Assembly (NCBI RefSeq): GCF_963678975.1
Contig: NC_089275.1
Location: 12,369,682 to 12,433,681 of the forward strand
DNA length: 64,000 bases
Source of the DNA: Dysidea avara
Taxonomy: Eukaryota > Porifera > Demospongiae > Dictyoceratida > Dysideidae
Direction: 5' to 3'
The translations under genes were made by a program, and so were the position numbers. The notes under the pieces were generated by a model. The model was given only the letters and a program-made list of their open reading frames with translations. It did no database searches and was not told the origin of the DNA. Position 1 is the stretch's first letter, and each line of letters opens with the position of its first letter. Below are positions 4,117-60,400 of the stretch, in pieces.

Positions 4117-4960
4117 TACAAAATGTTATAAACAAATTCTTGACTTCATAAAACTTCAACATGATCTTGGCTAACTGGTGCAGATATTGGAACAAATTTT
4201 TTACCATCAACAAGTTTATACTATCGTTATCGTTGAACACTTTGACACAAAATTTCCCATATCCTATTTCATAGACGACACTATAATCAAGTCTAGTACA
4301 GATGGTAGTAGTACTCACTATGATCTTTATCCACAGATTTATCTCAGAAAAATCATTATGACTACAAAGCTTGCAGAACCCTTGGACTACTGTGACGTAT
4401 CTTCAGCCACTCAATTGACGTTTCTACCAAGAAAACTTTGTATTTAGCATTAGTTAGATAACAATTACTTTATTGCTCTCCCCTATGGCACCCTTCCTAA
4501 TTTGCAAAATCTCTGCTCTGCAATTCCATGCTCTTAATGATTATATAATTGACTATAAAACACGTCTTTTCAAACTTAACATGCTACCATTACTGTACAC
4601 CTATGATCTCATGGTACTCTTTTTCATAAAATCAGTCCAGCTAGCAATACCAGCATCCATCAAATCATTTCAACTATGTTACCTTTTGTCACCATCCTAC
4701 CAGATCCTCCATCTCCAACAAACTTCACTGAACAGAATTATACTTCATCCAACAAACAAAGCAACTTTTATTTCAACAGATTACCAAGAATTTATAACCG
4801 TCTACTTCAACCACCATAGTAAATCACAGTTATACTCAAGATCTTCTGGCTGCAGTAGCACTTCCACTAATAACTTGACTCTGACAATCTTTATACAGTT
4901 TCCACTTCCAGGTCCCTGCATCACCTTTTACTTTTCTTTAAGTTGTAAAATAAATAATTT
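4117..4960 (+). pseudogene. Decayed non-LTR retrotransposon, RT C-terminal part
   Basis: Reading across frames on the + strand gives the familiar tail of CR1/L2-like reverse transcriptase proteins: a YDYKACRTLGLL-like block near 4355, LALVR-QLLYCSPLWHP near 4445-4490, ALNDYIIDYKTRLFKLN near 4530-4575, LPLLYTYDL near 4585, NKQSNFYFNRLPRIYN near 4755-4800 and DSDNLYTVS near 4880. Stops and frameshifts separate the blocks, so it is dead. A 187-codon open frame at 4473-5036 is largely the residue of this element and not a host gene. The same fragment recurs at 35946-36370, at the duplication joint. Confidence 0.75.
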
Positions 4961-5084
4961 TATAATAGGATATTTTAAATACATATGTATACTGTTAAAA
5001 TTAAGGTGGTACCACAACACCTATATTTTTTTTTGAAAATTCTAGGGAGTATTATTACAGCATCCCTGACACCTTAAGAAGTGT

Positions 5085-5579: not shown

Positions 5580-6260
5580 TATATAATAAGCTAACCTATA
5601 CATAATTTACATTCAATTGTAAATAAGTTGTACGTGTACTTTTTCTGGCTGAGAGCACAATAAGTTTCCCCCAGTGCAGTAATGCAGGCCTTGTTTGCAT
5701 AAAAAAGTGAAAATGAAATGAAAAAAAAAACTGACAAAAAGTGGTTCAAAAGTGTCATTCATGTTCTTTGCTATTACAGTACTCATGATTACTGAGTTTG
5801 ATAAGTGTATTTCTGAAGGCAAGCATTATAATTACGGAAATCTATACATAGTTATCACAGTGTCCACTATAAGACTAGCTGTCAAATGTGCTACTATATA
5901 GCTATGTGCGTGTGCTAATGAATTCATTGCTGTGGAATGGATCACCTTATAAGGGACTTTTACTACTTAGGCGAAAGGTGATTACCCCAATGCAGACCAA
6001 GCGTCTGTCGAAAGCCGTATGAATGCATTTAGCATGCAGGGGGTTTTAGGTGGCTCGCGATAGCTACAGTTTCCATGCATTATGGCTTCACCATTGCAGG
6101 CCTGAAAAAAGCATGCTATCTACTATATTAGCAGAAATTAAATTTTTTCTCAGTCTACCCTTTACAACAAACAGGAACTCTCTGGGACGCGTGTAGCGCG
6201 AATTCCAAGTTTAGTGCTTCAGAGCTGGCGAATATACTTGAGCCACCACTAATTCACTTG
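5580..6260 (+). repeat. Spacer segment shared with 38540-39280 (duplication unit 1)
   Basis: Long colinear similarity to 38540-39280: ACATTCAATTGTAAATAAGTTG, then TTCTGGCTGA-AGCACA, CATTCATG, then CTACCCTTTACAACAAACAG and GATTCACGC. With the reverse transcriptase fragment just to its left, it forms the left part of the duplicated unit. Unit 1 keeps CpG sites in this stretch (GGACGCGTGTAGCGCG near 6185) that have decayed in unit 2. Confidence 0.7.
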
Positions 6261-6839
6261 ATTCACGCGTGCTATTAGCCATGCACTATACCTATACTAG
6301 TTGTGCGGCTTCCGTTTAATGCTTGCCCATCCAAAATTTGACAGTCTGAAAAACTCGCATTGTATCGAGGCTCGTGAACATAGCTAGCTATTATCATGGT
6401 TACATTCAGGGCCGGCAAATGCCGGACAGGAACTGGTGGTCAACCACACTGAGTAATGATTATCAACAGTTAATCTGATTGCTTACACAACACTATTGAA
6501 GCCTTATGAAAACTGTACCGAGATACATTGATTAAGGGTTTATAATAACAGCAACCACTTCCGCTCATTGTAGCTAACCATGCATGCAGTATTTCTAAAA
6601 TATTTAGGAGGCGCTACTTTTTCCGGGGGTGCCAGCACCCCTATTAAGATCTCTATAGGTGCATTTGACGTGACTGTAGTTAATACCGGTAGTCTCGAGT
6701 CGTGGCCAGACCACTTTATCTCCGTCACTGCGCTTACAGATTGGAAATTGTAAGCGCCTATTTTTAAATCGATACTAAGCGCCGTGACAAAAAAAAAACG
6801 GTATGGCCACCCACGTGAGACTAATAGTTAAGGACCCCA

Positions 6840-13400: not shown

Positions 13401-16400
13401 TGAAGGTTCTACACATCACAGTGTTGCATACAAACACCTCTGGTAGGGCACCAGAGTTCTATGGTGAGGATAAGGCCCTACATGGCCCACTCCTAGATGC
13501 ACCAGCACTTTATAGTAATTAAATACTGATTCACAGCTGATATGCAATTGTATGAATGTAGTAATACTATGTGGATATAGTTTAAATAGTTTCCATAGAA
13601 CCTTACATAGCCACTACAGTACACTTCTTTAGATCATGACAAACTGCGATTAAATTTAAAAAACTTGAACAATGTGATGAGACAAGAATCTGGAGTAGCT
13701 ACCAGATGGTATGAGCTTGGAGTGGAGTTACTGGATAGTAACACTGCTGTACTGGATGTGATACAATCTGAGCATCAAAGTGATAATGTTCGTTGTAGTA
13801 AAATGCTCAAGACATGGCTTGAGATGAAACCTGATGCCAGTTGGAGTCAACTAGTTACAGCATTGAACAATATTGGATTGAGAACTGCAGCAGATAATGT
13901 TAAAATGAGCGAACTATCTAAAAAAGGTAGCCATGAGGTTTATGCCATATGTACAATATTGCTGGATGTTTTTACATTTACGTCACAAGTAAATTGCAAA
14001 TAAACAACTCAAATAAATTGATAGGATTGCACTTTGCAAGCAGAAGTTTAGTGTGTACATAACTGACTGGAGCTTATTACTTTCATTAATATTATTCTTA
14101 TACTAGATGTTTTTGCTGTTGGTAAAATTGAATCATAGGGTTTAAGTAGCTATAGTGGGTAGAAAGTAAATATAGCTAAGGAAAGTTTGTGGGATCCTAA
14201 AAGTACTGTTTGTTTAATTAACTTGCTTATTAGGGCAGGTGCTATATCAGGAAAATCATCCTGTTACGCACATTCTAAAACTCTTACATTATTATCAAAG
14301 GTTTTTATGAAACAAAACATCAAAGTGCTGTCACTAAAAGTACAATTGATCATATCATTTTAGTGTGACTACCCTAATAGAATAAATGATCAAATGTCAG
14401 TTGTTTTGTTGTTGAGGAAGTTCATAATATTTGACATGCAGAATATAATTAATCTCTGCATATTAAACATAGCATGACAGTAATACAACAAAGCAAGTAT
14501 GTTTGTGTAAAGCACAATCACTGCGTACATTAGAATATTAGCATGGGTCATTATTGTAGGGCTAAGCCTTACGTTTACATACATATAGCACATGTAGCTA
14601 CATATTTACTGATTTCCACAGGCTCTGTAAATAGGCAATTGACTAATCTCACTATAACCAATTGCAACACACCTGAGAAGGCCAGTACAGAATTTGGTCT
14701 TCTTCTTATTGAAATTTTGAATGTGCTAAAGCAAAATGAAAGTGATAATCTTGAAAAATTGCAAATAATATCATCTACCCTAACGGTAAAAGACTCGTCT
14801 GGGGTTAGGATATTCAGCGATAGTGAACTTGAAGATATACAATCCTGTACAAGTATCAAAACACTTCTAATCAATAAACTACGTCACTGCTACAGATGGG
14901 ATGACTACTCCATGTTGACTGTATTTATGTCATCATTAAATGCGGGGAAGTGTTTGAAGTTACTACATTTGTTTGAAATTAAAATCTATAGTCAAATTAA
15001 ACTCCAACAGATATGTGAACAACTTCCACAAGAAAGCAGCACAGTGCCAGAAGACTATAAAAAAATGATTGCCATTGTTGATAAAACATTCTCATCCATC
15101 ACAAAGGAGGAGTATGATGAGTTGAAATACTTCATTGCAGATCATTGTGGAGTAGAGCCTTGTGTTATATCTCCATTTCTTAAAGCTCGCCCATTTTTTT
15201 CAGTTGCAATAGAATGGTGCATTCCTGTTAATGCAGTTTCATGCATGATAGAAACAGCCAGAGCCAACACTCACAAGTTTTGTAAGGAAACATTCAAGTA
15301 TTTAAATATCTCATCAACGGTGATATTTGATTACAGAAAAAATGTAAGATATTACAATTGTTGTATGTGCAACATGTTGCATTCCTTAATATTACTGTAT
15401 TGAGTAGTGTACACTGTTACTTACCTCTGTTTCCCTCTTCCCTTGGGAAGGCATAATTGTCTAGGTCGCATAGTATCAAAAATTGTTTTTGTTCTATGTG
15501 ATATTCATTTTGTACTTGGTGGATAATTGATTGGCTTTATGTACACTTTACACACATGATACTATGAAACGAAACAAAGCAACTCTGAAACTACTGTACC
15601 AAAGGCTACAACAAATTGTTGCCAGTTATATAATATGAATAGTAAACAGCATACATACATATTATCCAGTTCATTTCTTTATCAAATCTAGATCTGTTGG
15701 ACAATCTTCATGCATTACATATAAGTGCACCTGCATGTGCAGCCTGTTAATATAAAATTATAGTCTATTGATAAATATGTATATGTTCAGTTAAGGCTCC
15801 AAAGTAGTGCAGGACATCTTAACCCATGCAGTGGTTGGTCTCATGTGCTAGTGGTTATAAATGAAGTAGGGTTCCAGTGATAAGAAGTTGTAAAACAAGA
15901 GCTATGATACTAGTAGTTTTACAACTTAACTATATGTATGTAGGAAATCCCTACATTGACATATTACCACCATCTGTTCAATGCCAAAGTATACGTAGGG
16001 ATTTTCCCATGTATAGCTATCTTGTATAAACTACCATCATTCACATATCATGTTTGCTGGAAACCTACTTTATTTTTAAATTAATAATACTAGAATTACA
16101 GCATAACTATATTCCAAATTTCTAGGTTTGACATTCAAACTCATGATTCACAACCCGATCCTTATGTGTTTAACCTATCATCTTAAAAATGCACCCAGAT
16201 GACTAAATTTCAGGCTGGTATTCACAAATCAAGTTGTGGGTTGCCAAGTGCAAATAATTGGGAAGGCTACAAGACTGCTTTTTGTAGATATTGTGCACAT
16301 ATACGTTATAAATGTGTGGCTGTGACTGGTATCTCAAACTCCTGAGTGAGCTACACAATAGATAGTTTGCGATGTCTAGTAATATAACTATAACCTACGA

Positions 16401-19400
16401 TTTTGTACTGTACAATAACACCGCAGCTGATTACAGCCAGAACATGCTGCCAACCCCTTAAAGATCAGAGAGCATGTAGCGGTCCAAGTATGAAGGTGTA
16501 TATTTCAGTGGTGACCATGTAGGGGTGTGGTCGGACTCCTCTAGGGAAAGTGTCGATGCGAAAAATTAATGCCTTGCTATGATTTCCTTAAATGAAGATA
16601 AAACAACCACGTAATTGAAGATAAAAGGAAAGGCAAAGTGCAGAAGGAAGACTCTCATCAGAACCAGAAAAGGCACATACCACTAGTGATTTTGTTATGG
16701 CATGAAATGGTGGTCGTGTGCTGCTTTGTTTGGCTTCTATTCTTGTGACTATGGTCAGGCAGGCAGACAAACAAACAAACCAAAAGTTGAGTTTTGGTGA
16801 TTTTTTAGCAATTTTCAATATCCAGCTGTCTTTGAGTGTTTGCTATGCACCAACTAAAGGCTATGCAATTTTTGCCACGTATCATATTTCCATGATGGTT
16901 TTTAATGGCAGCATTTTAGGTGGTGCCTGGAACCCTGCTAAACACTACTACTGTTGTTTGATATTAACCTGTGATGCCATAAATGTTAATACCATAAATG
17001 TCTTCACAATGTCTTCTCATGTACTGATGCAGAAGTCAGACTGTGATCAACTACTACAAGCAATTTGGTCATGGGATGTTGCTACTGTGGAGACACTAAT
17101 AAACACCAGATACATTGATGTGAACACTGTTAATGAGGTTAGTGGCTACTGTAGATATATATTATGGAGTGGCTCAAGAGTTTTCTATTCATGCAAAGTA
17201 TATACATATCCCACAACATAAATGCAAGTTTCTGTCACATGACATCCAGACTCTTTTATTAGAGATGGTCACCCTGGGAAGAAATATTTATTGACAGCTG
17301 GAAATTTCAAATCATAGCTTTTGGCCTTGCTAAGCTATAATGGATTGAAATAATTATTTAAATTGGCATATCTCACAATCTATTGGTATGTGTACATTGA
17401 CGGTTTTCCCATATTAGGTCACACGTGAATGATATAAAGCCACAAGCATGTATTACTTACCAGTTCTTACCTAGATAACCATCCCACACACATGCAATCC
17501 TTGAAAAGCTTACAGACAGGAATAATGAACTGCTGTGATCAAATCATCTCACGTGATTCCCACAGATTTCTTCAAGTGTGACCAAACTTTTGAAAATCTT
17601 TGATTTACGCACACACCATTGAACTTGACTTTTCACCATGAATTGATAGCCACACACCGCACATTCATACCACAGCCATATGCCACTGAGTTTCTTGGGC
17701 TGCTTTTCACGAGTGGATCTGTGTCAGTCACTGGAAACACTCTGACACTTTGGACTGCCACTGACCAGCTGGAACGCACAGCTAGAGGCATGGACACCCT
17801 TGGACAGATTAAAAACTCAGGAAGTGTAGTGAAGGCACTTTACTTCAAAGGAATTTACCACCCACTAACTTGCCACCCACTGAATAGTTTTATTACATGC
17901 ACAACTTCCATTTCCAATCAATCCAATTTATTATATTTGTGATCTTACGTAACTCATGGTTATATATGCTGTTCCTTTGGAACTGATTGTATTTCACCAG
18001 ACCCTTACTTTTAGCAAAGGTGCTACTAGGAGTGCACATGAATTATGGCTAGTTTCAGGTTATATGTATGTACCCTTAGCACTGAGTTTTATTAACACAG
18101 ACCATTTAAGACACGTACCTGCTATATACACTTGCTTGATAGAAATATATGTGGTTCCACTGGTTTAATATTTTGCCATCTCAACAAGCACTAAATAACA
18201 ACGAATTCATCCCTATGTCATCCTTCACTTCTGTCTTTAGTGGGATAGGTTCAACTGTTATTTGTGTAGGATGATCATGCACCTATTAAGTTAATTAACA
18301 ACGACAATATACATTTTAATGAATCGTGCAATGATTAATTTGAATTTGAAATTTATCTCTTAAGCTATATAGCACCAGACTAATCAGTAAACATGAAGTT
18401 TGACCACTCAAAAACAGGTTGATGGAAACATTAACCTGTAATACATCTCTCAAATGTGTTTAACAACTGTAGATTGCCCACTCTAAGTTTTTGCTCTCTA
18501 TCAGAATGGTGAGGATTAGGAAGATACTCTGTTCACAAATTAAATTTCAAAATGTTGTATGTGAACAAGCATGGACCTAAAGAACTTAATAGGTGGAGAC
18601 TTTAAGAAATTCAAAAATTGTGGACAAATTTTCAACTTACTGTGTGGTATGCAAGCACTCTTGGAATTGGTAAAAAAAATATGAGCAGCTTATCATGATA
18701 AATATTACCGACTTCTTTCATTTTGAGCAAGATAAAAACTGAGGTTTTAAGGCTTTGGAATAAACCTTTTTGCAAATTAATGTACTTTATCTTACCATTA
18801 CTATATACTGTACGTACATATAGGATGGGTCAACTCCTTTACATGCTGCTGCATGTACTGGAAATTGTCAAATGATAGAAACGTTGATCAAGTTAGGAGC
18901 AAACATGAATCCTGCAACGGTAAGGAAATACAGCATTTATGCAGCAACTTCAGTGTATTTTCTTGACATTATAAATAGTCTGGATGGACTCCACTACATG
19001 AAGCTGTGCACAAAAACAGAGTTCAAGCAGTGGAATTACTGATCAAATTTGAAGCAAACATTAATGCTGTTACTAAAGTAAGGAACATTATGTACAAAAC
19101 AAAACGTACAAAATAAAACATTGTACATACAGTTCACAGGGGTGCAGTCTCAGTGTGTGTATATTAAGCATGAGCTGTAGCTGACAAAAAGTGCATGAAA
19201 CAGATAGGATACAGACAGCATAATACATTTTCTCGCTATAGGATGGATGGACTCCTTTACATGATGCTGCACATGAAGGCCATCCTCAGGCTGTTGAGGC
19301 ACTGATCAAGTCAGAAAATATTGATATCAATGCTGCCATTTATGTGAGGCAACATGCAGCAGCAGTATTGATATATTCAGTTCTGCTGTTCATTTAAGAT

Positions 19401-22400
19401 AACATGTCAATGAGTATTGTTGAAAATAGAATGGATGGACTCCTCTACATGCTGCTTCAAACTGGAATCACATTGAGGTCGTAAAACTTTTGATCAAGTC
19501 AGGAGCAAATGTTAATATAGCTCAGCATGAAGTAAATTTATTATTTAGTACTTTGGTACTAATTTATGTTGTGTGGCTGTTTGTCACTGTAGGATGGGTG
19601 GACTCCTCTTCATTGCGCTTCGCGATATGGAAACGTTGAGATAGCAAAGATGTTGATCACTGCTGGATCTAATATCAATTCAATCAGCAAAGTGAGCAAA
19701 TTAATGCAGCTATTATCACTGTTCATGTGACTGGATTTTCAAGTCTGATTCAGGTCACAAATAAATCATGTAGCTACTTAAACCAGTTAAAATTTGTTAC
19801 ACTGCCAAACACTATACAGTGGAACCCCAATTAACCGAACACTCGATTATCTGAACGTCAAATTGACTGCTCAATTAGAACATTTTGTCAACAAGTCTTT
19901 GTTAGATTAGTTGAGCAAAGCATATATATAAATGTACAGCTATTCGATTTTACATACTATGAACACCCTTTCTCCCAATTAGTTCAGATATTCAAGATTC
20001 CACTTCTGGAGATGCTGACTTCAGGTCTTGTAATCATCTACCCTTACATTAAAATGGAGCCAGCACTGGCTTTTAATTGCGGTTTTATTTCCATTTTTGA
20101 TTCTGAATCCTTACCACATTTTATTTTGAAAATGTATTATTGACTTAGAATAATGTTTAAGCCTATTCAGCCGTTATCATAATTTCTTGAACTCTGAACA
20201 TGTATCAGACATATTACTTATTCACCATGTGACGTTGCAGAATAGTTATTGGAAAGTTATGACTGATAAACTTTGTTAAATAAAATACCAGTTACCATTA
20301 TACCAGTTATCCAAGTTCTAATTTAATTTAAACTTCACAAAATAATCACTTTCTTAGATTCTTTCAGAACAGTAGAGCAGCTACTGTGCAGACTTTAATA
20401 CAATGATTACAATGTGTTAATTGAAAATGTATAATTATGGGATATATGTAAGATGTAGTAAGTAACAAAGCATTATACAGCCGATCAACTTTGGTTAAAT
20501 CTTAGTGGCATCCATGACTTTGCTGTGTCTGCAAATTGTTCAGTAGAGTACAGTACTGTAATTTGCTCTTTTTTTCATTATAAAATAATTTTCATATGCG
20601 AAACTCGTACGAAAAGTTCTTACATGAAATTTTTACATAAAATCGAACTACTCTAATAGAGCAGTCATCTGAAAATATTTTTACACAAAAAAGTTTATCA
20701 TGAAAATGTTTTGCATGAAAATAAGCGAATTACAATTTTGATTGTGTTAATTACATTGCAGATAGGATGGGTACAATATTACCTTAATTATCACTTAATA
20801 CAAAACATTAAAGGGTGATTATATTCATAATGAGATTTCTTATAGGGTGGTGATCTTCCTTTACACCTTGCGTCAAGTAATGGTCACACTGAAGTAGTCA
20901 AAATTTTAGTCAAGGCTGGAGCTGAGATTGGCATTTCCAACAAAGTGAGTTTCCAACAATATGCATAGTGCCAATAACATTAACACATAAGTCGCCTTGA
21001 CAACGCAATGCTTTTGTTCTAATATTATTGGAGAGAAATCATCTGACATAACCAGCAGTTACTTGTGCTATCTAATTGAAATGATATCAGATCTGTATTT
21101 CACCAGACCTTTAATTTTGTGAATGAGTAGGCAGCACCAGACTAATAGCTCCTTAGGACTACCAGATTCAAATAATAGCCACACCATTTATTCAAGGGTG
21201 GCGTTTACGCTCTGACTTTAAGGACACAGTATGGTCACTATTCAAATGCAACAACTATTAAAGGTGTGGTGTTTAACCAAGGAAATATTGGCATAAACTG
21301 AAAACAGTACTATAGATGTCAGGCATGCATTAAATGGCTAGCACAGAATTTTAGTGCTAAAGATGATATGGGATCTGCAAATCCTTACTTTTTGTGAATG
21401 GGCAGGCGGCGCTAGGCTACTGAGTTATCTGCTTGTCCTTGGGTTAGAAAGGTGAAGTAGACTATCCTGCAGTGTTATTCAGTACTGTTTACAGAGGGGA
21501 AAGAACACTAGTCATTCTAAATTGTGTATCTGGAGGTAGTGACATTGTACCATTTTTAATATTTGTATTTTTTGAATATTTCACATTCCAGATTTTCAAA
21601 GGAACTTTTATTAAAAGAATACCAGGTCTGATTCAATATCTTATTATCTTATTGTATTATCACTTTATGGCTTAAAACGCTTGACAATGTAAGACATTTT
21701 TGTAGAGAGTTTCCCAATAGGAAAAATGGCTGCTACAAAGTTTACCTGACTGGTCATACATACTCCACAGAAATTTCTGAAAGTAAAATTTTAGTCCTTT
21801 GAGATAAACAATTTAGATTGAAAGTTACCAATACAAAATGAAAATACCATAATTCAAAGAATTTTATCATAGCTATCAAGAAAATAAAGTTATGTGAGAA
21901 TCTTTATATTCCAAGCAGTGTAAATAGTACAGTATGTTACAGGATATCAGAATTGGCTTTTTGTAGCTGAGAAGTTAGCTCAGGCCCTATATGAAAATAA
22001 ATGTATACTGTATGGTATATGTACGTATGTATGTATGTATGTATGTATGTATGTATGTATGTATGTATGTATGTATGTATGTATGTATGTATGTATGTAT
22101 GTATGTATGTATGTATGTATGTATGTATGTATGTATGTATGTATGTACGTACATATTCTCATGTCAGTATATAGCAAATTGTTTATCTCATGTTACATAC
22201 AAATTACTCAGAAAAACAGACTGCCAATACAAGAGGCACTGAACTGTAAGCAACATCATGTTGTGCGTTATTTTGTGAGGGAAGCAGAAATGGATCTTAC
22301 AGTACTAGACCAGGTTTAATATAATAATGAACTCAGATTGTATTACAACTGTACATATAATGTAGGTAACAAGACACAAAATCAGAATATTGATGAAAGG

Positions 22401-22605
22401 AAGATCTCATGGCCATTTAGCTTATGAATATGGTATGAATTATTAATAGTGTGTGCAGCTAGACTCTAATAGTTATGTTGAGTAATCTATATTCTAGACT
22501 CTGATCAGCACTCCGATGCCAACTCTAGTGCAAGTTCAGGCCATGAGTCAAGTGATACAGAAGGTGAAAATAGTCATAGTAATATCGTCATCACACACAC
22601 ACACA

Positions 22606-27339: not shown

Positions 27340-27369
27340 TGTACACCACACACACGCACGCAAGCACGC

Positions 27370-41700: not shown

Positions 41701-41705
41701 TATGT

Positions 41706-41812: not shown

Positions 41813-41889
41813 CTTTATTATATGTAATGGAACTCTCTTGACTTTCCTCGGTGCACGAATATAGACTGCAATCTCTGCAGTAGACCAAT

Positions 41890-42585
41890 GAGTCCGTTAT
41901 ATAGGCGGTTTACAATTTGTATTTATAATCTTATTGCTAATAGAAGGATTCGATTGTGGTAATCATGCATGAAACATATAATACATGAGTGTGTGTCTCG
42001 GGTCGGGTAACGTATAAGCGCTATACTATCAAATTCTCTCAGTGCCAGTATGACTCACGATTCATGGCGAAAAGGCGACGAAGATGACCACCCTGTAGAG
42101 ACTTATATATCTAATTGTGGTTTAAGTTTGGCCGCTCCGCTCTTCCGAGAGCTCTGTGAGTTTCAGCCTTGGCCTTTCAGCGTGACTGAGTAATAATCTC
42201 AGTAGAGTCAACCTAGCAGGCTAGCTGTTTCATTGTACGGAATTCTTGGCGCGAAAGTCTTTCAGCCTGGCTCAGGTAAATGTTCAGTGTTGTCGCGGAA
42301 ACTTCTGCTGGCAACTGAGTCAGCGCATCCTGCATGTCAAAAGTATCAGCCGGGCTACGGGCCAGCTACTACGGCCATATAGATTTATAAACGAGGGCCG
42401 TGGCCGGCCATTCATAAAATCAAGAAAATTTCGAGAACTATTATTACTATATTTGTTCGTACTGTACAGAAATCAAAAAAGCCGGATTGTTGTGCACAGG
42501 TGTGATCATATAATGCGGAATGTTCAGGTTGGTACAAAACTCATCTACTGAAGGTAGGAGAGTAAATCACAAAGGCCGGGGGGCC
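41890..42585. other. CpG-containing intergenic stretch with an uncertain frame
   Basis: Richer in CpG than its surroundings and could be a promoter relic. A 101-codon + strand frame (42246-42551) is open only from a TTG. I recognise no product. Confidence 0.2.
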
Positions 42586-42589
42586 GGAA

Positions 42590-43255
42590 GGGGGGGAGTA
42601 TGTTCCAGAGTCTGATTGTAGACATGCAGGGAAAAGGAAAATTTATAAGAGTCAGTCATATAGTGTCAAGCTGTTTATAATATCTATCCTTCTCTTGATG
42701 GACGATGATTAGGTATAAAATCATTTGTAGGTATACTTAGATTGCCATTAATTATCTTATACATTGTAGTTATCTTAGACTTGTTTCTTCTTTCTTCGAG
42801 GGTAGGTAAATTTAATGATGTCGTCATTCTTGTTACACTATACTATAAATTTAGAAAAATTATTGTAGTAACTGAAATTTGGCTGCTCTCCTTTGGATGG
42901 ACTCAAGTTGGTTTATGTTGGTGTGGGTGTGAGGGGCTCAGACAGAGGATACATATTCAACAATGGGGCAGACTATCATCTTGATTACTTGTAGCAATTG
43001 TTCTTAACAGAAACAGGGCATTGCATGGTGAAGATTATGATGCAAAAATCCATTACCCTGGTTTGCTTTGCTAGTGACTTTTTGAATTAGTTCATTCCAT
43101 GATAGTGGTCAATGCATGTGGTGACCCCAAGATATTTTGTGTAAGGAACCTCAGAGATAATAGAATTCTCCAAATGATAGCTATGGATTTCTTTTATTGG
43201 TAATTCTCAAGTGTTCACATTTCTTAATGTTAAATTCCAGCAAGTATAGTCAGGT
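42590..43255 (-). pseudogene. Decayed non-LTR RT fragment (jockey/CR1-like)
   Basis: On the minus strand, blocks typical of the reverse transcriptase C-terminus appear in order across frames: SEVPYTKYLGVT near 43130, KSLAKQTRVMDF near 43055, a YPLSEP-like block near 42930, and STIRLWNILPP at about 42597-42630. Several stops and frameshifts. A different family from the fragments at 4117 and 35946. Confidence 0.7.
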
Positions 43256-43976
43256 AATTATATCATAAGTTTTTTTTGTTTTTTTTTTTTGTTTGTTTTA
43301 ACCACCTAGCTAGCTATCAAGACTCACTTTTATAGTAGCTAACAGAGTAATCAATGACTGGAATTCACAGGAATTTATTACCCAATCTATTGTTGATTCC
43401 CGTTCTTTAAAACACTGCTGGACAGACAATACAGTAATTGCCTATTTGATTTTGTATAGTAATAATTATTAGTATAGTTCAGAACATAATTATACTATAA
43501 CAATTATAATGGATGTACATGCAGGAGCAAGCTTTTATCCCTATGATCACATATATCATGCATGCAGCATGCCAACAGGTAGCTAGCTGGATCCAAAGAA
43601 CACAAATCAAACTAGCTATAGCTACAAAAATAAACTACAATCAAAATCAGCTAGATTTGAGTGGACTCAATGGTCTGCTTTTCCCAAGCACAATGGCAAT
43701 TTGTACGAGTGGTCTGGGGCCTCAATGTAGTTCTGGCTAGCTGAGCCTGGGGTGCAGGCTGTACAGCTTTGTGGTGCTAAACAAAGACCTATGCTGTCTT
43801 TATCAAGGATCTGAATGTGTTAATCAGGATTGAAACAAAGCTTAAGTATTCAGGCAAGACCCAGCATTGGGGGTCTCAGCTTGGATGATGTTATGCTCTA
43901 ATTTGCTGGCATAGGTTGCATGTGCACTGCCTTCCAAGATGCACTCCCTCACATGAGCTATCTACAGTTATTCATG
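43256..43976. other. Intergenic sequence with a T-rich tract
   Basis: A T-rich tract with two G interruptions lies at 43269-43300. The rest has no supported gene. Confidence 0.3.
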
Positions 43977-44326
43977 CACTATTGGAGATTTTGTCCATGA
44001 AAATCCAATGAAAAAAATGTGCATCTTGTGAAAAGTAAAGTTTTCATTAGATGGCCCAATGAAATTTTATTTTCATAGAAGTTTAATTAACTAGGCAAAT
44101 TAATAAAAAATCAATGAATCGAAAAGTTACCAATGAAAATTCCATGAAAAGCAACACACAGAGTTTTCAGTGGTAATTTTTCATTGGGTTTTCATTAACT
44201 TATCCTAAGAAAATGCTATCAAAATAAAATTTCATTGGGGCCACCAAATGAAAACTTTACTTTTCATGCACACATTGAACATTTTTTCATTGGATCTTCA
44301 TGGACAAATTAAATTCTCCAGTAGTG
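43977..44326. mobile_element. Foldback MITE with CACTA ends
   Basis: Starts CACTATTGGAGA and ends TCTCCAGTAGTG. The arms extend inward about 100 bp (GTCCATGAAAATCCAATGAAAA against its inverse), with a second inner inverted pair. No clear target duplication, so superfamily assignment is open. Confidence 0.75.
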
Positions 44327-45323
44327 TATCACTCTGCATGTTTGCTCATTGCTTGTGTACTGCACTTCTCCCTTCAGATATTCTATCCCCCTTCTTAGCC
44401 TGCCATCTAACAGCTCTGGACAAGCAATCTGGCATTCACCCCATAAGAATTTGTGAAGTTGTCAATGAATTATTAAAAAGGCGGCAGTGGCATAGGTACC
44501 GTGGTTTTCCAATTTGTTGTTTCCACTCACAATGTTCCACACGGTGTAAAATATTGATTATGCTGTAGACATCATAGTGGACACTAATAATGTAATATCT
44601 GTAATCTCAATAATTAACTAAATATGGCAGAGGAGTCTTTTACTGATACTAAATATTAATGAGCATTTTGAATTTTCATTTGCACATGCAATGCATATCT
44701 GTTTATGACAACAAACTGAAACCTTCTCATCTACTCCACCCCTACAATTACAAACACCCAATATACGAGCTCATCTCACTGTGGACTGCATGTTCATACA
44801 TTTTTTACATGACTATGCCTAACTACTGTGACTAAATACACTGCTACATATTAGAGATGAAACAATATATCAATAATATCGTGTATCGTATCATTTTAAG
44901 ACAATGAAGATATATCAAGTTCAACTATGTGTATATGATTGTCTAGCTATACCAAACAAAGTAATATGCAAATTAATATAACTTGCAATTGTGTACTAAA
45001 GTTCCATTCTTCTCCTCTTAGTGGAACAAACACTGCTTTACCCTAAAACTTCTTCCCCCCTCATCCCCCCCAACAGTGTCTCCTATGCTCAGCACCTGGC
45101 TTATAGCATAGAGTAGTGTTATCTTCTTGACTTAATACACAACTTTTACTGTTCCATGTTGACATAAGTGCGCTAAATACTTAAGGGTGTCAATTGGTTC
45201 TAAATTGTCAACACATGCGCATTAGCAAAAAGGCTAATCTTGTTTAGGCTTTGTGAGAAGAAATTTTAGAAACTGCTCACATAAAATCAAAGAAGATCAG
45301 ACTCATGTTAATCCCACAAGTAT
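44327..45323. other. Intergenic sequence, nothing recognised
   Basis: No exon, RNA gene or clear repeat. A 106-codon frame (44248-44568) begins inside the foldback element and is not supported. Confidence 0.3.
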
Positions 45324-48447: not shown

Positions 48448-51400
48448 TCATTTTTCTCTTTTGTAAATTCTATCCCTCAGTTCAAGGAAAATTGGTGCTG
48501 GTAATATGTGACTGTGTTCATCAATTAATTTACTGATGGTCTGGTAGCTCTGTTCTTCATATTCACTGTACAGGTGTCTCAGGTTCAGTGACTCGTACAC
48601 CTCCTTCACCTTCTCTACACAACCCTCATCTGATCTACCATAGTTAGCCTGGAGGAGGAAACACATGTGTTGGATACAACTGTACAATTTACCCAACCAT
48701 CATCATACAGTACTGCTATACAGTACAACAGTACTGTATATTAAGGAACAAAAAGGAGTAGGCGTAGCCCACGAAATAACATCACCCAAAAACCAGCTGC
48801 AATTTTCCCTGATGACGATGAGGCAGTATTGGTTAAGTAAAGCTAAGCCCAAACAAACTTTCAGATCGACCCGAAACACTTTCAACAAGTAGCTACGGAA
48901 TTTAAAAAATAATTTATTTAACAGAATTTTCTACTGACTGACTGATAAAGCTAAGCCCAAACAAACTTTCAGATCGACCCAAAACACTTTCAACAAGTAG
49001 CTACGGAATTTAAAAATTATTTATTTAACAGAATTTTCCACTGACTGACTGATGCCTTCAGACAAGCGTAATTCGACAATGGCTAAGGCTACGGGCTTGA
49101 TTTTTCACTGTTTAATGTTGCTTCAGCCCGAGACGTGCCTTTTGGCATGCCACAGTACGTACAATGCATTTTTCATGGACTTACCAGTGTCCTCCTTTGC
49201 GTCCCATTCATCTTTGCTGACAGCAAAAAGTGTCGATTTGGCAGTAGTACGTGATGGCTTCCCTTCGCAATGGAAATCGTCCGTATTTTTCATAGTGGCT
49301 ATTTTGATTATAGGGGTGCTTTTCGAACAGTTCTTGATTCGTACTGCTGTGTAACAGGTTGAACATAGCTGACAACAAAGCATAATGAATACTTCATTTT
49401 TCAGATGGTAATTGATTATAACTGGGTCACGTGGCACCATTTCTTTCAGTATGCATGGATCACAGAGAGGTGCTTTCTGAACAGTTCTTGATCTGAAATG
49501 CTGTGTAACGGGTTGAACATAGCTGACAATGAAGCATAATGGATACTTCACTTTTCAGACAATAATTGATATAGCTGGGGTGTGCGGCACCATTTCTTTC
49601 ACGGTATGCGTGAGCGAGTGTGTGAGTTCACCAGTCATAATAATTATTTATTAAAAAGTTAACGAACAAATACACAGAAAAATTGGGAATTTTCAACTAG
49701 AGTAGGGACCATAGCACATCAATAAAAAGTACTGAAACAAGCTGAAGTAGTACACAATATTACATCACCGTAAAAAAATAATAAGTGTTATATCACTACT
49801 GTGCTCAAGATACCATAATGGAAATGCACAGTAGGGATATAACACTTTTATTGCTTTACTGATTTAATATTGTGCTATAGTTTAATATCATACTCCAGCT
49901 TGTTTCAGTACTTTTTATCGATGTGCTATGGTCCCTACTCTAGTTGAAAACTCCAATTCTTTTCTGTGTACTTGTACTATTATAGAGTCAACTATGCACT
50001 CAATTTGGTGTCAGTATGATTAACCTTCACACAGCTAATTGACCATTTGATGACAATTACTCCAATAGAGTAGACATGTTAACAAACTCTAACTGAATGA
50101 TCACATCCAATAGATGATTGTGTACACAAAATGATGGGATCATACATTTCAACCTGTCTTAGTGGTTACCTGCATAGAATGGTCACCTCTCTTAAAAAGG
50201 TCAACCTTAAATTCCCCAAGTGAGAAAATTATCCACCTGGCCACCTGGCTATAATATTTTTGGCCCGAAAATGACTGGTTTACGCATGCATCTCACCACA
50301 CATGTATTGTTAAATTACCATATTACCTCCAATTGTGGCCCACCATTTACTTCTTTAAACTCAAAGGACACCACTTGACATTTATTTGAGACATGAGTGT
50401 AACCATAGATAATAGACGCTACATACTGGATTGGAAACTTCTAAGCTCCACCACGCTTCATGCCCCGTATACAGTACACAGTACCAAGAGTAGATTTTAT
50501 AAACATGTTTTGCTTACTGGTGAATAAAAATGTAAGATTGGCCTATTCATAGTGGGCATATTGATGTACATTAGCTAGAAGTTTGGCAAACGCGAAAGGT
50601 TGATATGAGAGGCGGGAATCATATGCTTGACTAAACTGGAGTAAATATACCATGAAACACATACCAGTACATGTAGTGATAAACATCAGCCTTAACCTAC
50701 TCTTGTTTGCCCCAGAGTTTTCACAAACATGTGCAAATACCATTTATACAGAAGGCGTCTATACCAGTAGAAAGCCAATCACCACCAAAGAAACAATCTG
50801 CTAAACTTGGTAGCTAAAGCAACCAAGCTGTATCAAGGCAGCAAGCCAGCATCTTGAAACTTTAAAAAAATGTTTTAAAACTTCAGGAATAAAACGCAGA
50901 TAGATAAGTGGTTTCGCATAGGCACTATATGTGTGCTTCCAATTCAGGTAGGGGTGTCTATTATCTATGATGATGGCAATTACATAGTAAAATAAATGGG
51001 TGATTAGAAGTTGTAGTTCCCACAACAATAATACATATATGAGACCAAGTCTGCAAACACCCAACACAATCATGCATTTTTCGGATTCTTGTTTATTAAT
51101 CTACTTTACAGTACTTAGCCAAGTGTACCCCTCTGACCAAATTTCAGCTTCATATACCAATAACTTTCAGAGTTACAGCTCTACAAAGCAGCAACAACAG
51201 AAAGATCGACTTGCACAGCAAGTATAGGGAAAATACGTTACAGGCATTTACTAAAACAGTAGTAACTTACGAATAGAATGATGTACAGAATTGAACTTTG
51301 CACCATCATGTTTGCCATGAATAGGGGAATCGATTACTGGGTAAGGTTTTCCTGTTATCACCTTTCTTCACTGCATATGTACAAAGGCAAAGAAAGATCG

Positions 51401-54400
51401 ATCGCATGTGATGTGACATAAACAAATGCCCATAACTTGCATGTTGGGCCTACTGCAACTAAACAACAAATTTCTAACTCCTCTTGAATAGATGAACCAG
51501 ATGATGTCCAGGTTTTTATTGTTAGTCCCTTCCTTCACTAAGAAATAAGTGTTCAAAAAATTTATGGAATTGTTTCAATAATACACAAGTATTTCACCCA
51601 TTGTATTCAATGCTTTATACTGTAAATTTAGGCTTGCGTGATTGCGTCGGGTTTTTGCAGATCTGGTCACATATGGCAACTTATGTGGAACACAGGTAAA
51701 AAACTACATACTCCTCAATAACTGATCTCACCTCTAGTATTGCTCTTTGTTTATCACTGGCTCTCTTTAATGCTTGTACTATCAACCAGGTACACTTGTT
51801 ACCCTGAATGTCTGTACCAACCTTGCCGATAGTGATTGGGTCTCCAAAACAGTCTATAAAATCATCCTACAGTAGTGCAACATGTAAGAGTTGTAATGAA
51901 GGGAACACGTGATTAATTAATTTGTACAACACACATGCACACACACGTACAAACACACACTACTGCATATGCAGTAAGCACACACACATGCACACAAACA
52001 ACGACGGCAACAAATGTACTACCTTACCTGGTTTTGGTAATATTCCCCGATTTCCAATAGAATAGATAATGCTCCCTCATTGGCAGCTTTATCATTTATA
52101 CCAGCCTATGGTAGGATAGCAACAATGAAAGAGCAAAATATTGCATATGTACAGTAGATACATGTAAAGACCAAATAAAAAGACTTTACTCCTTTTCATT
52201 TGCACATACAGTGGAATCTGTCTAAGCCGGTGTCACCTTTGGGTCTGACCTTACTAGGCTAGTGGCTGCCAGCTGGTGGATTAGTGTTACTAGGCTAGTG
52301 GCTGCCAGCTGGTGGATTAGTGTATAAACTTCTCACTTGTGTATTTAAAGTTGGTATTTTTAGAGAGGTGGTCTTTCTATACAGGTGACTGCTAAGACTG
52401 TATAACATTCACATACCATGCAAAATGCAGCTGCCACTGGAAAGTAGAAAGAGAAATATCCAGTCTTGTACTTCACAATACTCTTTAGCCTGTCATGAAC
52501 AAATTGGACAGTACATGGAGTTGACAGGTATATGTGACCGGATCTATGAAAGGGATCTCACACACACATCCAAAGAAACCATAACACTTAAAGTAACAAA
52601 CACAAATCTGAAATTATTTCATCCATCACACTTTGCTGGTTCTCATTACCGATCAAATTTAAGTCAATAGCATTGTTGTGTATGCATGATCATATGATCA
52701 AAGTAGGTAAATTTGATGCCTGTGAAAGATCCCTTCTCACAAATAGAGTCATGCTTGATTACCTTTCCTCTGTAAACTGACTAAGGTCAGTGATCTTCTG
52801 TGAGAATAGTACATCCATTATCTCCCCTATTTCTGTATATTCTACAATCTGAAATGCAAATCCAGCAGTAATAGAACAACAGAAAGTAGTAGACATGTAA
52901 TGTAACAGAGAGTTGACCATCCTAACACCAATGACTGTTCAATTAGAGTATTTAAACAACGGGTATATGCTACCATGATATAGAATTTTGGCAGGAGAAA
53001 TTCTTCATATAACTCTGGCAGGCAATAATTATGGTGAATGCTTGTGTCATAGTACATTCTCTCTGTATAGTTTGCTAGAAACTGGACAAGAAAATTTTGG
53101 CGAATTGAAAGTGTGCCAAAATTTTCTCCCTCCTAGTATCATACAGCATGATAGTACTGTATAGTAGGGACCACAAAGGAGTAGGCATGGCCAACGAAAT
53201 AGCATCACCCAAAAAACCACCCTCAATTTTCCCTGATGACAATGAGGCAGTATTGGTTAGGTAAAACCAAGCTGAAACAAGCTTTCAGATTGACCCAAAA
53301 TGCTTTCAACAAATTGCTACAGTTTTTTTCTTTTAGGATTATTTAATGGAATTTTCTACTTACTGACTGACTGATGCCTTCAGGCAAGCATAACTTGATA
53401 ACGGCTAAGGCTACGGGCTTGATTTTTTCACTGTTCGACGTCGCTTCGGCCCGAGGGATTCCTTTTGGCATACCGCAGTACGTACAATGCATTCTTCATG
53501 GACTTACCAGTGTCCTCCTTTGTGTCCCATTGATCATTGCTGACAGTGAAAAGTATCAATTTGGCAGTGGCCTCCCTTCGTAACAGAAATTCTTCGCATT
53601 TTTCATAGTGGCTATTTTGATTGCAGAGGTACTTTTCGAACAGTTGAAATGTTGTGTAACAGCTGACAACATAGCATAATGGATACTTCAATTTTCAGAC
53701 AATGATTGATATAGCTGGGACGTGCGGCTCCATTTAAGATGTGGTATGCAAGGTTATAATATAATTATTTACAACAAAAAAAGTTAACAAACAAGTATAT
53801 ACACAAAAAAAAATTGGAATTTTTCAACTAGAGTAGGGACCATAGCATGTCGATAACAAGTTGATGTTGTGCTACTGTATGCTACTTCTAAAAACCAGGC
53901 GCTAGTTGCATAGCTGGAAATGTATTTTAACTATGCTTCAGTTTTGTAATAATGCAGTTATTGTAATTTCAGATTTCATAATAGGTGAATTATTTCGTAA
54001 TTCTCTAATTATGTTGCTATACATTGCTAAGAAAGCGCATTTAGAGCTTTCAACAACCTATTTCACACAGAAGTATTTTCTCAACTGGTTTATAGTTTGT
54101 TTATAGTGCTTTTTTCCCGCAAATTCTCTCTACCAAACCTCAAGGCTACCCTATATTTCCATTCATGTACATAGGGACATGTCCCTTTTTGAGTCGAAGA
54201 GATACGCATTTCCTAGTTGCCTATAGAGGTCTGTTACGGTAATTTTCAGCACTTAGATACACAAAGAACCCAATGGGAAGGTAGTTCATGAAGTGTGTAG
54301 AGAGTCGCTACAGTGCTACACCCATTGAAACTGCCTCAGTGTAAACTATACCTATCAGCGTTGAAACCAGGTCGGGTCATCCGGGTCACATTTTCTCCGG

Positions 54401-57400
54401 GTCATCCGGGTCTGACCCGGATTGGATCACGTGAGAAACGAAATTGTTCGTTTGACGACGTGGAAACTTATAAACGCTATCGTGTAGGTCTTTTGTGAGC
54501 CACGCCCACTTATCGCATTACCAACATATGCTCAGCCACGCCCATTTGTTAGTAAGTGTAGTATGTAGTACGAAACTGAAGGTATCTATTGTCAGTAAGT
54601 GAAGACCTTTTTTTTTTTTTTTTTTTTTTTTTTTGGTCTTCAACCTACAGCTAGGCTGAAGTTGCAATATTTACTCAACACGAATTGAATGCTCAAAATG
54701 TAGACTCGTTCGCTCGCTCGAGACTAGCCGAAACACGTCTTGGCTTTAATTAATCCGGGTCAGCAGTAGTGACCCGGTTTCAACGTTGATACCTATCCTC
54801 AAATTTAATACAAGCTTCATTAATTTTAGTGTTCAATTTAATAGATTGACTGCTTTTTACCACTAAAAGGATATGCTCACATGGGTACATATGGACAAGC
54901 ATAGATAGGTAGATAGTACACACACATTTTTACGAAAACGATTTTAGTAAACCAGGCACACGTCAGGTTTAAAAAGTTGTGGAAACCATAAAAGTGCAGT
55001 GTCCATTACTACTCTTTCTCAAACTTGAAATGGAACCATACTGTATGTGTCTGTTGTTGACAACTGCTGTTACCACTAATCATCTGGTTGGCTGAAATGT
55101 TAACTCTCTTGAGAAAAAATCCACCTTTGATCAGGATTCTACCAATACAAAAAAATACCTACCAATCCAATACCGATACCTAGCAGTAAATTTTCACCAA
55201 TACCGATACCGATAATTGCCTTATAATTTACACAACTCTCAAGTTAGCCTGTGTGACTGCTCTATTAGAATTTTTATTGTCCAGTGACTATTCTATTAGA
55301 GTAATTCAATTTTTTCATGCAAACATAGTAAGTAGCAGTTGCTCAATGTACAGTATAACAAAGCAATCCCTGTACCTTTCGCTAGAATAATGCTCAACAC
55401 TATTTCCAGCCTGTTATACCTCATGTTTTGCTAGCATAGCATTTATGATGATAGTTATGATGACGATTGGTGCGAGTGGCTATTAATCAGTATCGGAATA
55501 CCTAAATAACTGATACCGATCGATACCAAAGCCCAATATTGGCTCCAATACGATACCAATCGATACCAAAGCCCAATATTGGCTCCAATACGATACCAAT
55601 CCGACTATCGGTGGAACACTACTTTTGATTTTTTGCAGTTTTTCAGGATCCAGCTCAACTTGTACATACTATAGTATAATGTACTCAACATTGAAGTTTG
55701 TTTTTTTGAAATCTGATATGCATTTTGTGTGGGCAAATTTTCTACAATTATAATGAGTCCATTATGAATGGACATTACATACAACCAAAAAACATGCTGG
55801 GACATACACCAATTTTGGTCGGAAAATGCCAGATGTCCGATCATTATTTTAAGCACAGTATGTGGTGAATCCTGGGGAACACAGCCAAAAGCTAATCTTT
55901 TCTGTATGTATATTAAGTAAGTGATGGAAACTGTGCAGGTACTGTGAGATGTGTTTGGGACATAATAAATATATCACACACATGTATAAGTCTTATCCAC
56001 TATTGCATACATCACAAAAAATGGCAGTGGCAGGTGGTGGTGGTGGAAGGGGGGGGACTTTTGAGTATTGGGAGAGATGGTAGTTTGCTATTACAACATT
56101 TATAAACTTAAACAAGGGCAAAGGTGAGGTACCGTATTTGACCGTTTAATGGCTGCTCCACAGCCTAGAATTACTGTCATAAGAGCCGCGGCTTGTATCT
56201 GAACATACTGTTGCAAGTGTTGACTAGACACATTTGAAGCAGAAACCAGGCAAAGGAGTTGTTTTGCCAGGAAATAGCATTTTTGAGAGAAGTTAAAATG
56301 AATGACAGTAATGACAGATGATTAAATAAGGTCAGTTACTTGTGAATCAGTACAAATGCCACGGGCTGCTGCCACACAAGCTCATAGTGGCCGTCCTCAG
56401 ATAGTAGCCACCTTCACATAGTAGCCACGGGGTTTTGCTTGCTGAAAGTTATAGTAGCCACGGCTATTAACTGGTCAAATACGGTACACATACTCCAGTA
56501 TATTTGAGCAACAATTATTAATAATTTTGGTCTGGTTTTGCAAGCTCCCCTTTGCATTGCTAACAATATGTTTACTAACTATTTTATGGCTCCATGTCTG
56601 TTAATCCACACAAAAAATGTTCAGTATGATTGCTGGGTGGTTAACTCCCTACACTATTGCCAAATATGGCATCAAATTTCATAATGGCAGATAAGGCTCA
56701 TTACACAAGCATGTACACACACTACTCACCATATGGAATAGTTCTATTAGTTCAATGTAACAAGGATGATGACGAAACTCTGAATTAAGTAGCACATAAG
56801 CTGATGAGATTAACCAGAAACTATCATTTACAGCTGTCATCCTAATGTGATCCTGTGAGAGAATAGGCAGTTACACACTGAGTAGCTTAAATATTACATG
56901 CATACATACATAGCACTACCAATGCAAAACCTTGTTCTACATACACACCGTAGAAATATTCTAAATCCAGAGCACAATACACTACACACACACAAACTAC
57001 AGGTTCGTGTACATGAACACACAAAGTACATCCTTCAGCTGCCACAAACACAGTCATGCCTACATAGAGAAACATATTACACTGGATCCCTTGTGCACTA
57101 CTCAGGTGCCTATGGGTCAGTGCTAATTCTCAAAGCAGAACTAGTACCCAGTAAGAGGCTGTACTATATTTGTCACAGGTGAAGCCATGGCCACTCATTA
57201 CATAACATACCTGTTTGTACCAACAAAGTTTATTTCTTCTTGTCAAAGACTCGTCCACTATATCATCAGCAACTAAACTAGCTGCTTGTAGCTATAACAA
57301 AGTCACCATTATCAAACAACAACGTAATGATCATTGTGTGCTTACTATTTCAATACACCATCCCAACGTGAAGGCGAGATGTTTCTCTCTATCAGACAAT

Positions 57401-60400
57401 GTCCCATCACCATAGAGTTGTGACAGTGTAGACACCACCATTAAACCTCTAGTCATCTTCCCTATATAGTAGTAGTACTCCTTAATAATACACACCACTG
57501 TGTACAGTACAATTGTGTAGATCAATGACTCAATAGACTTAGGAGTTCATACATACAAGTTCAACTACTAAGTTTGTGTACTACAATATACAGGCTCACT
57601 ACTTGTGGAAGTTAGCAGAAAAAGGTTTGACAAGCTGACTAAGACAAGGATAACTTGTATTGACAGCCAAGACACTTAAGTATTCTAATAAATTAGTGCA
57701 GTCAAATGCTGTATCTAAGAATTACTTACTTGTACACAGTGTAGTCTATTTTACTATCACTTTAAGGCCAACATAGGAATTTGCAACTCAAACCACTATT
57801 AATTTTTGAGGTAAAATCATGTACAATATTCAATGCATGGTAGGGGTGTTCATAGGTTGTCTGTTAACATAAAGAAGTTTCTATTGTACAGTGGTTACCA
57901 ATATACAGTACTGTTGGCAATGAGAGTATATGTAACCCAATACAAGTATGCTGCTTCCAAGTTTGAATTCATGTGAAATTGTACAAAATCTAACAGATAT
58001 CAGTATTGCTGCTGTGTCCATGTTGGTATTATAGTCTTATCACACTGTTGTTGAACACCTTGCCATGGTCCCTACAATGGCCCATTGACTTTTGAAAGTC
58101 AGGTATCACATAGTATGTCAGTAGCATCTTTTATGGTATAATTACACACATACATGGCACATATTACGACATATTTAGTGGCCGTTGCTAAGAGATAATT
58201 ATACGACATCATGTTGTGTGTACACAAGAGATCTTACCTCCAACAACATTGTACTTGACACACTATAGAGAAACAAATCACAAAATAATAATAATACAGG
58301 TTTTACAAACAATGTAAATATGTATGCATGTACAATAAAATTAGTATAGGTGAATAACAATTATCTGTGTATGTACCACTCTGCGTGGGCAGTTCAAAGG
58401 CACCGCCAGTGCCATAATTTGTATATTGCACTGCTGCAGACCGCAGCGAGTGCATTATAACTTATAACGCACTGGTTGCGGTTTTGTAGACCACAACGAG
58501 CGCATTATAAGTTATAATGCACCGACCGCAGTGCAATATACAGATATTGCACTGGCTGCGGTTTTGTGCAGCATAGCACAAGTGCCGGTGGCGAAGACCA
58601 CTACGACACCTCACCTAATATTTGGACAGACACTACACAGATCACTCGAATCCTTTTATAGCCTGACATGTAAAGGTCGATTGTGGGCCATAACGTCACC
58701 AATACGTATAATGTTTACAAGCAGCCAATGGCGATCAAAAAAGCCAACGTGGGTGGCCACAACTCTAGTCTACATATATATAAACGTACTTGTACACCTT
58801 ACTAGTCTGGTGCCATCTTAGCCCAGATTAAACTGTAGTCCACTTCGACAATGACTCAATACAACAAATATATTCTAAATAATACTAACCTTTACGTTCG
58901 ATTGTGGTAACCAGTTTTGTCATGCCACCAGATTTGAGTTTAGCCAGTGTGAATAGTAAGAATTAGACTAGTATCGTTTAGTAGTTAGGTTTTGTTTACT
59001 TAAACCATCTATTTAGCTGATTTTTTTCGCTCGAGAGAATCACTATGGCGATTAGTCTGGTGCTTTAATAGTCTATATGGCACGTTGGCATGCTGAGCAC
59101 TACATGATGAGAGTGGAACAGTGAATGCAGGTTAGTGATATAACCCATAGCATACTAGCTTTCAATATCTCAAGTGGCTACAGTACTGCAGGGGGGACGT
59201 CATCGCAACGTCAGGCTTGGTTACCCACAATCAATGTTAGAAACCTGGCCTTTATAAGTGTCACAGCTGTCTTGTGAGATTCTCCCCACCTATTAGGTGA
59301 ATGGTACATAACAGTTATACAACGTGCACTCGTGCTCTGCCTGTATAAACGCACTTGCCTTCGGGCCTGACGGCCCTCAGGCTCGTGCGTTTATATCAGG
59401 CAGAGCACTCGTGGCCGTTGTATAACTATATAATATATGCACAGTACAGTGCCTCTCCTGTGTACAGCACAACCTCTTAAAGACACAAGATAGTATGTCA
59501 TGTAGCCCAAGAAGCCATCATACCACTACACCAGTGTGTTATTAACAAGAGAAAATGTGATCTTCACCCGTTAGCTGAATGGAGTGATTATATTGGTGGA
59601 TTTTCCTGTCTGGTGGGGGAGTCCACATACATACCAAATTCGAAGGAAATCACCCTAGCCATTCCTGATATACATGTACAAGTGACCAAAATTTTTCGTC
59701 AATTCTCCTTGTTTTCACACACTTTACAAAATTGCGATAAACACAATGTGAGGAGTCCAATCGAGCTAAAATTTGAAGGACCAAGGAAAATTCCAGTACC
59801 AAGTTTTGTGTGAATCCAATGACCATGTCCAGGGCAGAGTTATGACCAATTGCTCATGCAAAAAAAGAAGATATATTTGTTATCACACCTATACATATAG
59901 CAAATCTTCAACCATACACAAATACAATTCTTTGCAACTCAATTTGCTCAAGTTCACCCCACAATGTTGGTAACATTTGTCTAGTTATCACTGAAAGGCG
60001 TTTCAGTGGTATAGAAGAATCGGATAAAAACTATCAACTATCAACATTCAACAAATGTGCAATCAAGATACTCTAATAGTGCAGTCACCCTATTAGAGCA
60101 TTCAACTGTGTGAAACTCCAGCTAAATAGTATGTCACACTGTAGAACACTCAGCTAAGTAGCAAGTCACCATGTAGACAGTTAAACTATAAACAAGTCAT
60201 CATCCTGTAGAAAGTTCAAATTACATGACTATTAGAATGTTCAGTTACATGATTGGCTCACATACGTAAAAGTACTCAAATATAAAACGCTCCTCTTATA
60301 GGAAAATGACAAGTAATGGTCAAGCCCCAAAGTCAGCTCTAGGCTGGCTATGGAACTTGCAAATACTAATGTCTATGCTACAGTGTGATGCATATAAGCT

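Follow-up and report, generated by a model that had tools for sequence, protein, structure and literature searches.

The question raised by this locus is whether a single tandem duplication can account for a block that appears twice within one stretch of DNA. The sequence-only reading had found the order RT fragment, spacer, ankyrin exons and FDPS gene in two units and had ascribed the whole arrangement to one such event. The window is the entire 64-kb stretch analysed (positions 12369682-12433681), in which there are 0 N bases; all positions are given in window coordinates, with negative numbers lying to the left of base 1. We added flanks of 90 kb on each side and compared the resulting 244-kb region, and genome-wide searches covered the 550.8-Mb assembly with its 108 contigs.

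Self-comparison of the window gave colinear same-strand matches extending from 4111/35940 to 35940/58222, that is, two co-oriented colinear copies, as a single tandem duplication requires. The matches, with unit 1 named before unit 2 and all on the same strand, are the following:

4117-4523 / 35947-36362: LINE, RT part
5589-5763 / 38540-38706: first "spacer" match
6154-6271 / 39162-39276: second "spacer" match
19211-19533 / 39851-40145: ankyrin match
from 23066/46348 up to 35940/58222: FDPS part

The two colinear diagonals and the sharp joint that had been predicted are both present. The left matches are offset by 31.8-33.0 kb (predicted ~32 kb) and the FDPS matches by 22.3-25.5 kb (predicted ~22-24 kb); for the ankyrin match the offset is 20.6 kb. 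The colinear order and its coordinates hold; however, there are more than two units, and the divergence between units 1 and 2 is uneven. These two units contain the following features:

4117-4854, + strand: unit 1, RT part of an old 5'-truncated LINE, identified by alignment to LINE copies of the genome; left edge of the repeated block
5608-5740, + strand: unit 1, 3' end of the 4117 LINE (the first "spacer" match)
5752-5816, + strand: unit 1, flank past the LINE tail, common with 38695-38767
6154-6271, + strand: unit 1, second "spacer" match, mostly a dispersed repeat
13611-14003, + strand: unit 1, Death-domain open frame (Pfam PF00531, E 2.2e-9)
18979-22592, + strand: unit 1, ankyrin-repeat exons 18979-19706 and 20846-20959 with a downstream stretch 22191-22592
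24229-34440, - strand: unit 1, FDPS exons 3-10, without exons 1-2
35940-35947, no strand assigned: joint of FDPS intron 2, six bases and LINE (self-comparison, alignment)
35947-36375, + strand: unit 2, RT part of the LINE, with the same start base as at 4117
38557-38639, + strand: unit 2, LINE 3' end
39851-40145, + strand: unit 2, ankyrin remnant with an in-frame stop
48451-62111, - strand: unit 2, FDPS gene, exons 10 to 1

The "RT fragment" at the start of both units does begin at a shared base, but it turned out to belong to an old 5'-truncated LINE. Similarly, the doubled "spacer" exists as matches, but these consist of the 3' end of the LINE and of a mostly dispersed repeat. About 5 kb of unit 2 (40150-45320) has zero blastn matches in the window self-comparison or the flank comparison and zero protein-level matches in the surrounding 244 kb (open frames of at least 25 residues, E up to 1e-6).

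At the joint, the FDPS match ends at 35940, which corresponds to 58222; its final 120 bases contain 4 differences, none of which falls within the final 55. The LINE match starts at 35947, which corresponds to 4117 (or at 35940, corresponding to 4111, if six weakly similar bases are included). Alignment thus confirmed that FDPS homology stops at 35940 and that the RT fragment follows within six bases, and self-comparison bore out a head-to-tail repeat whose sharp joint, FDPS intron 2 against LINE, ties the right end of the first copy to the left end of the second. The joint region was found once; its FDPS side has no second copy among the 40 scored matches, the 39 non-self matches of which cover the LINE side only, from ~35948 on. 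Position 4117 was considered as a second FDPS-LINE joint and rejected, as the sequence to its left has no excess similarity to the end of FDPS intron 2 (40 of 200 shuffles scored as high over 60 bases; local match 29/60). A bridging role of the LINE in its simple form was also discarded, because the LINE stands at both 4117 and 35947.

The 27-mer at the LINE start occurs exactly only at 4117 and 35947, which are 2 of the 58 matches with up to 3 mismatches in the assembly. All eight of the other LINE copies examined (6 young, 2 old) extend 5' of the shared start, a count that leaves aside a ninth locus, L035, whose 30-base match is uninformative; the young copies reach ~890 bases further. Past the LINE tail, the common flank 5752-5816/38695-38767 was scored as highly by only 3 of 1000 shuffles and 1 of 1000 stretches of the 244-kb region. 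For the repeat at 6154, the best 40 of 104 candidates comprise 1 self match, 1 in unit 2 and 38 elsewhere, and among the matches listed the one in unit 2 reaches base 532 of the query, the longest other reaching 493 (39 bases less). The shared LINE start and the shared tail flank favour a history in which one insertion would have been followed by duplication. The search for a target duplication of the unit 1 LINE gave nothing convincing (24 of 300 shuffles were as good).

Comparison of the LINE sequences themselves is less favourable to common descent by duplication. The LINE pair of units 1 and 2 differs at 16.6% of sites, and the unit 1 LINE is closer to an unlinked copy (12.8%); in the LINE tree, whose support is low (73/100), units 1 and 2 do not form a pair. 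The two copies agree against the young family at 29 sites. Of these, 23 are silent, which is what descent from a shared active parent would give, whereas the changes private to each copy lack such a codon-position pattern (codon positions 11/14/8 and 11/7/10). No decay common to both LINE copies is visible. Hence, if they were duplicated together, the duplication must have occurred very soon after the insertion.

The ankyrin part was described as exons in both units, but in unit 2 it amounts to the single stop-bearing stretch 39851-40145. The remnant shows almost the same identity to unit 0 (71.6%) as to unit 1 (72.3%). Unit 2 may indeed have lost most of an ankyrin gene, as had been proposed, but this equidistance does not single out unit 1 as its source. 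Unit 0 has its ankyrin gene at about -12.2 to -0.9 kb, one more ankyrin copy lies near -45 to -43 kb, and the unit 1 ankyrin exons and the stretch 22191-22592 all have counterparts to the left of the window. The Death-domain exon gave zero matches elsewhere in the 244 kb, units 0 and 2 included, and a Pfam search with ten open frames left nine of them without a family. Two simple repeats were observed beside these genes: a long tandem array with a period of ~61 bases, seen in self-matches, adjoins the unit 0 ankyrin gene (L010 9881-10000, L009 1-3769), and 33.5 copies of TATG at 22018-22151 immediately precede the final ankyrin-gene match in unit 1.

In the unit 2 FDPS gene, exon 2 is located at 58236-58259, 14 bases to the right of 58222, and a candidate exon 1 near 61.8-62.1 kb, which is 90.6% identical to another copy, encodes what we take to be an FPPS-like N-terminus. 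This candidate was better than, and replaced, one at 58888-58962. Neither exon 2 nor the candidate exon 1 has a counterpart in unit 1, which upholds the statement that the unit 1 gene lacks its first two coding exons. A segment at 24160-24417 that was considered a dispersed repeat is the last FDPS exon. Both Asp-rich motifs, DDIVD and DDFID, are present in unit 2, and the best solved-structure matches are FPPS; a PDB search with exon 3 alone gave 0 matches.

Divergence along the block is far from uniform. The corrected distance between units 1 and 2 falls from 0.22-0.24 in the LINE and spacer to 0.01-0.02 beside the joint, and within FDPS the divergence descends in steps:

24108-28212: oldest zone, noncoding difference to unit 2 of 0.10-0.11
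28213-31313: middle zone, difference 0.055
31314-35940: youngest zone, difference 0.018, up to the joint

For the noncoding FDPS sequence, the BIC was 3204.7 with one rate and 3039.8, 3037.3 and 3037.2 with three, four and five, respectively; the one-rate model is 165 BIC units worse than three rates, and the five-segment fit adds a patch of 0.036 at 24.1-24.55 kb. Because a single event predicts one divergence throughout, a single duplication is not the whole story. Furthermore, units 1 and 2 are each other's closest relatives in the FDPS part but not in the LINE or in the ankyrin remnant. Four insertions are unique to one unit and have an empty site in the other:

30432-30984: unit 1 only, 8-9-base target duplication
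33074-33998: unit 1 only, ~926 bases, without a clear target duplication
34735-35465: unit 1 only, inverted ends and 8-9-base target duplication
about 54357-54788: unit 2 only, 8-9-base target duplication

The FDPS genes of units 1 and 2 are part of a larger cluster, in which FDPS-like copies or fragments occupy at least 8 places within about 145 kb. The claim of only two units is contradicted by a further ankyrin gene and a broken FDPS exon to the left of 4117. Besides those in units 1 and 2, the cluster includes:

2549-2717, - strand: unit 0, broken, frameshifted last exon of an FDPS-family gene (tblastn, blastn with unit 1 and the third copy), with intron similarity extending to 2938
64.8-68.2 kb: FDPS-like copy with stops in exon 3
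69.6-78.4 kb: the most FPPS-like copy
115.5-116.6 kb: FDPS-like copy or fragment
126.4-134.7 kb: third FDPS copy
141.2-144.8 kb, + strand: FDPS-like copy without the second DDxxD

One more copy may lie at 147.6 kb, where exon 7 has a weak match (E 0.003). A Pfam family search of the whole assembly, in which 19 of 19 candidates were scored and whose exon-wise design misses more divergent copies, gave 10 matches: 2 share a single place on C3, and the other 8 belong to the cluster, namely to units 1 and 2 and to the copies at 69.6-78.4 and 126.4-134.7 kb.

Members of this cluster diverge unevenly from one another as well. Between unit 2 and the third copy, differences range from 0/117 to 14/87 by exon (chi-square 49.5, p 2e-8). 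A 121-base patch around exon 7 (52401-52521 in unit 2, L028 3798-3918 in the third copy) is 99.2% identical, and the introns outside it cannot be aligned; the third copy introns align only in part with units 1 and 2. Another patch, of 161 bases and 96.9% identity, links the last exon of unit 1 to the opposite-strand copy at 68.0-68.2 kb. Gene conversion predicts such local borders between stretches of high and low identity, and exchange between FDPS copies would be the simplest cause of the stepped divergence.

We also compared the coding changes of the two genes over 293 codons, using the third copy as an outgroup. Amino-acid-changing against silent changes number 8 to 2 in unit 1 and 1 to 5 in unit 2 (Fisher p 0.035). 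Constraint has been lost in unit 1, whose gene looks released from selection and resembles a decaying pseudogene, as expected because exons 1-2 are missing; the unit 2 gene looks maintained. Exons 6-10 differ between the units at 13 of 558 positions, against 118 of 1050 in their flanks, which fits either exon-centred conversion or a unit 1 gene that was whole for some time.

The explanation that we regard as probable, by a modest degree, is that the block was duplicated head-to-tail long ago and that gene conversion later rewrote its FDPS part. The window would then contain two units, or three with the left flank, each with ankyrin sequence followed by an FDPS-family gene and arranged head-to-tail. 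Units 1 and 2 would derive from an old duplication of a block starting at most 6 bases from a recently inserted 5'-truncated LINE, and this duplication probably came soon after the insertion. Gene conversion between paralogues would have rewritten the FDPS parts at several times, as the steps and the mosaic suggest, with the latest tract covering ~3 kb of aligned sequence up to the joint; the joint would date from the old duplication, and the direction and number of the conversions are what we infer. We prefer this explanation because of the colinear order and sharp joint, the LINE 27-mer and the shared tail flank, together with the stepped divergence, the exchange between FDPS copies seen independently and the ratios of changes in units 1 and 2. 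Several observations speak against it: the LINE copies lack shared decay and are not joined in the tree; units 1 and 2 are not linked through the ankyrin remnant; the young tract extends right up to the final base before the joint, for which a remade joint is the simpler account; and the conserved unit 1 exons 6-10 would also fit a gene that was whole for a time.

The last two points lead to a rather unlikely alternative, in which the joint is young. Both FDPS copies would have been whole after the old duplication, and a later break between them would have been repaired by copying ~3 kb of unit 2 FDPS as far as intron 2. That end would have been attached to the DNA next to the unit 2 LINE, with no more than 6 bases of filler between them, and unit 1 exons 1-2 would have been lost then. 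The difference of 0.018 beside the joint with 0 of 55 last bases differing, the far stronger conservation of exons 6-10 than of their flanks and the recent look of the surplus of amino-acid changes in unit 1 all agree with such a repair. However, exon-centred patches also occur between other copies, and exon conservation need not mean function; conversion, too, can run to a homology boundary. With one genome to go by, we rate an original joint as more probable than one remade together with the youngest tract.

It is improbable that only FDPS was duplicated and that the left-hand pieces, namely independent insertions from one LINE subfamily, a dispersed repeat and an older ankyrin array, fell into the same order by chance. 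The absence of shared LINE decay, the dispersed nature of the 6154 repeat and the star phylogeny of the ankyrin sequences would all suit such a coincidence, but the LINE start base is identical, unlike in the 8 other copies examined, and the flank past the LINE tail is shared. We consider it very improbable that one tandem duplication made everything and that unit 2 then lost its ankyrin exons. What remains valid of this proposal is the order, the head-to-tail orientation, the joint, the same LINE start and the shared flank; it fails on the fall in divergence from 0.24 to 0.01-0.02 inside one block, on the equidistance of the ankyrin remnant from unit 0 and on the existence of further units and copies. 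An assembly artefact, with two alleles or mis-joined contigs placed end to end, is extremely improbable. Alleles could differ by the 1-2% seen near the joint, but the difference is about 11% and more elsewhere in the block, the insertions specific to each unit have empty sites in the other and the joint was found once, with its FDPS side unduplicated among the 40 scored matches.

The mechanism of the preferred explanation, old duplication with later conversion, is ordinary. Tandem segmental duplication followed by concerted evolution of a gene family through gene conversion is a known kind of genome change, and the head-to-tail units, the truncated gene at the joint and the high-identity patches between paralogues are typical of it. 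The present case does not differ in principle, but its divergence falls in steep steps that can be read unusually well as far as the joint. In the excerpt of PMC7058536, LINE-1-mediated tandem duplications in human cancer genomes have a LINE at the joint only. The present joint resembles them in that it carries a truncated LINE, at most 6 bases away, with the 5' end toward the distant breakpoint, as LINE-mediated duplication predicts; unlike in that excerpt, the LINE is also found at the left edge of unit 1. The expansion of geranylgeranyl diphosphate synthase genes in termites, as excerpted from PMC13143122, is likewise a case of an animal prenyl diphosphate synthase gene that was duplicated serially, whereas the present case concerns the FDPS family in another animal. 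None of the papers listed in literature searches dealt with the present locus.

The residues that bear on product chain length are unusual in several copies. The best solved matches, 1ubv and 1ubx, carry the same Ala-Ser pair as units 1 and 2 and the third copy; entries 1ubv-1uby are presumably engineered forms of avian FPPS, and avian 1fps reads QAFFLVADDIMD at the corresponding stretch. In our sequences this pair is encoded by FDPS exon 4 (34189-34269 in unit 1, 57211-57291 in unit 2, L028 6037-6117 in the third copy) and sits at positions 4 and 5 before the first Asp-rich motif, where the expected bulky residues are absent. According to the excerpt of PMC7887238, these positions have a role in chain length, and the avian FPPS double mutant F112A/F113S makes a longer product. 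The most FPPS-like copy (69.6-78.4 kb) has Ala-Phe. A separate observation concerns the copy at 141-145 kb (L029 7172-9864, L030 640-813, + strand), which has DYNRC where others have DDxxD, strongly different exons 4 and 6 and a last exon close to the others.

In summary, a clean joint does not date a duplication, and parts of one block can differ greatly in apparent age because paralogues exchange sequence. We tentatively suggest, as a possibility, that this locus keeps making FDPS paralogues by block duplication and exchange. Given the naturally occurring Ala-Ser pair in three copies and the loss of the second DDxxD in another, the cluster may yield longer prenyl chains or terpenes and not farnesyl diphosphate. 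The cluster is a lead for prenyl-chain or terpene enzymes in the sponge.
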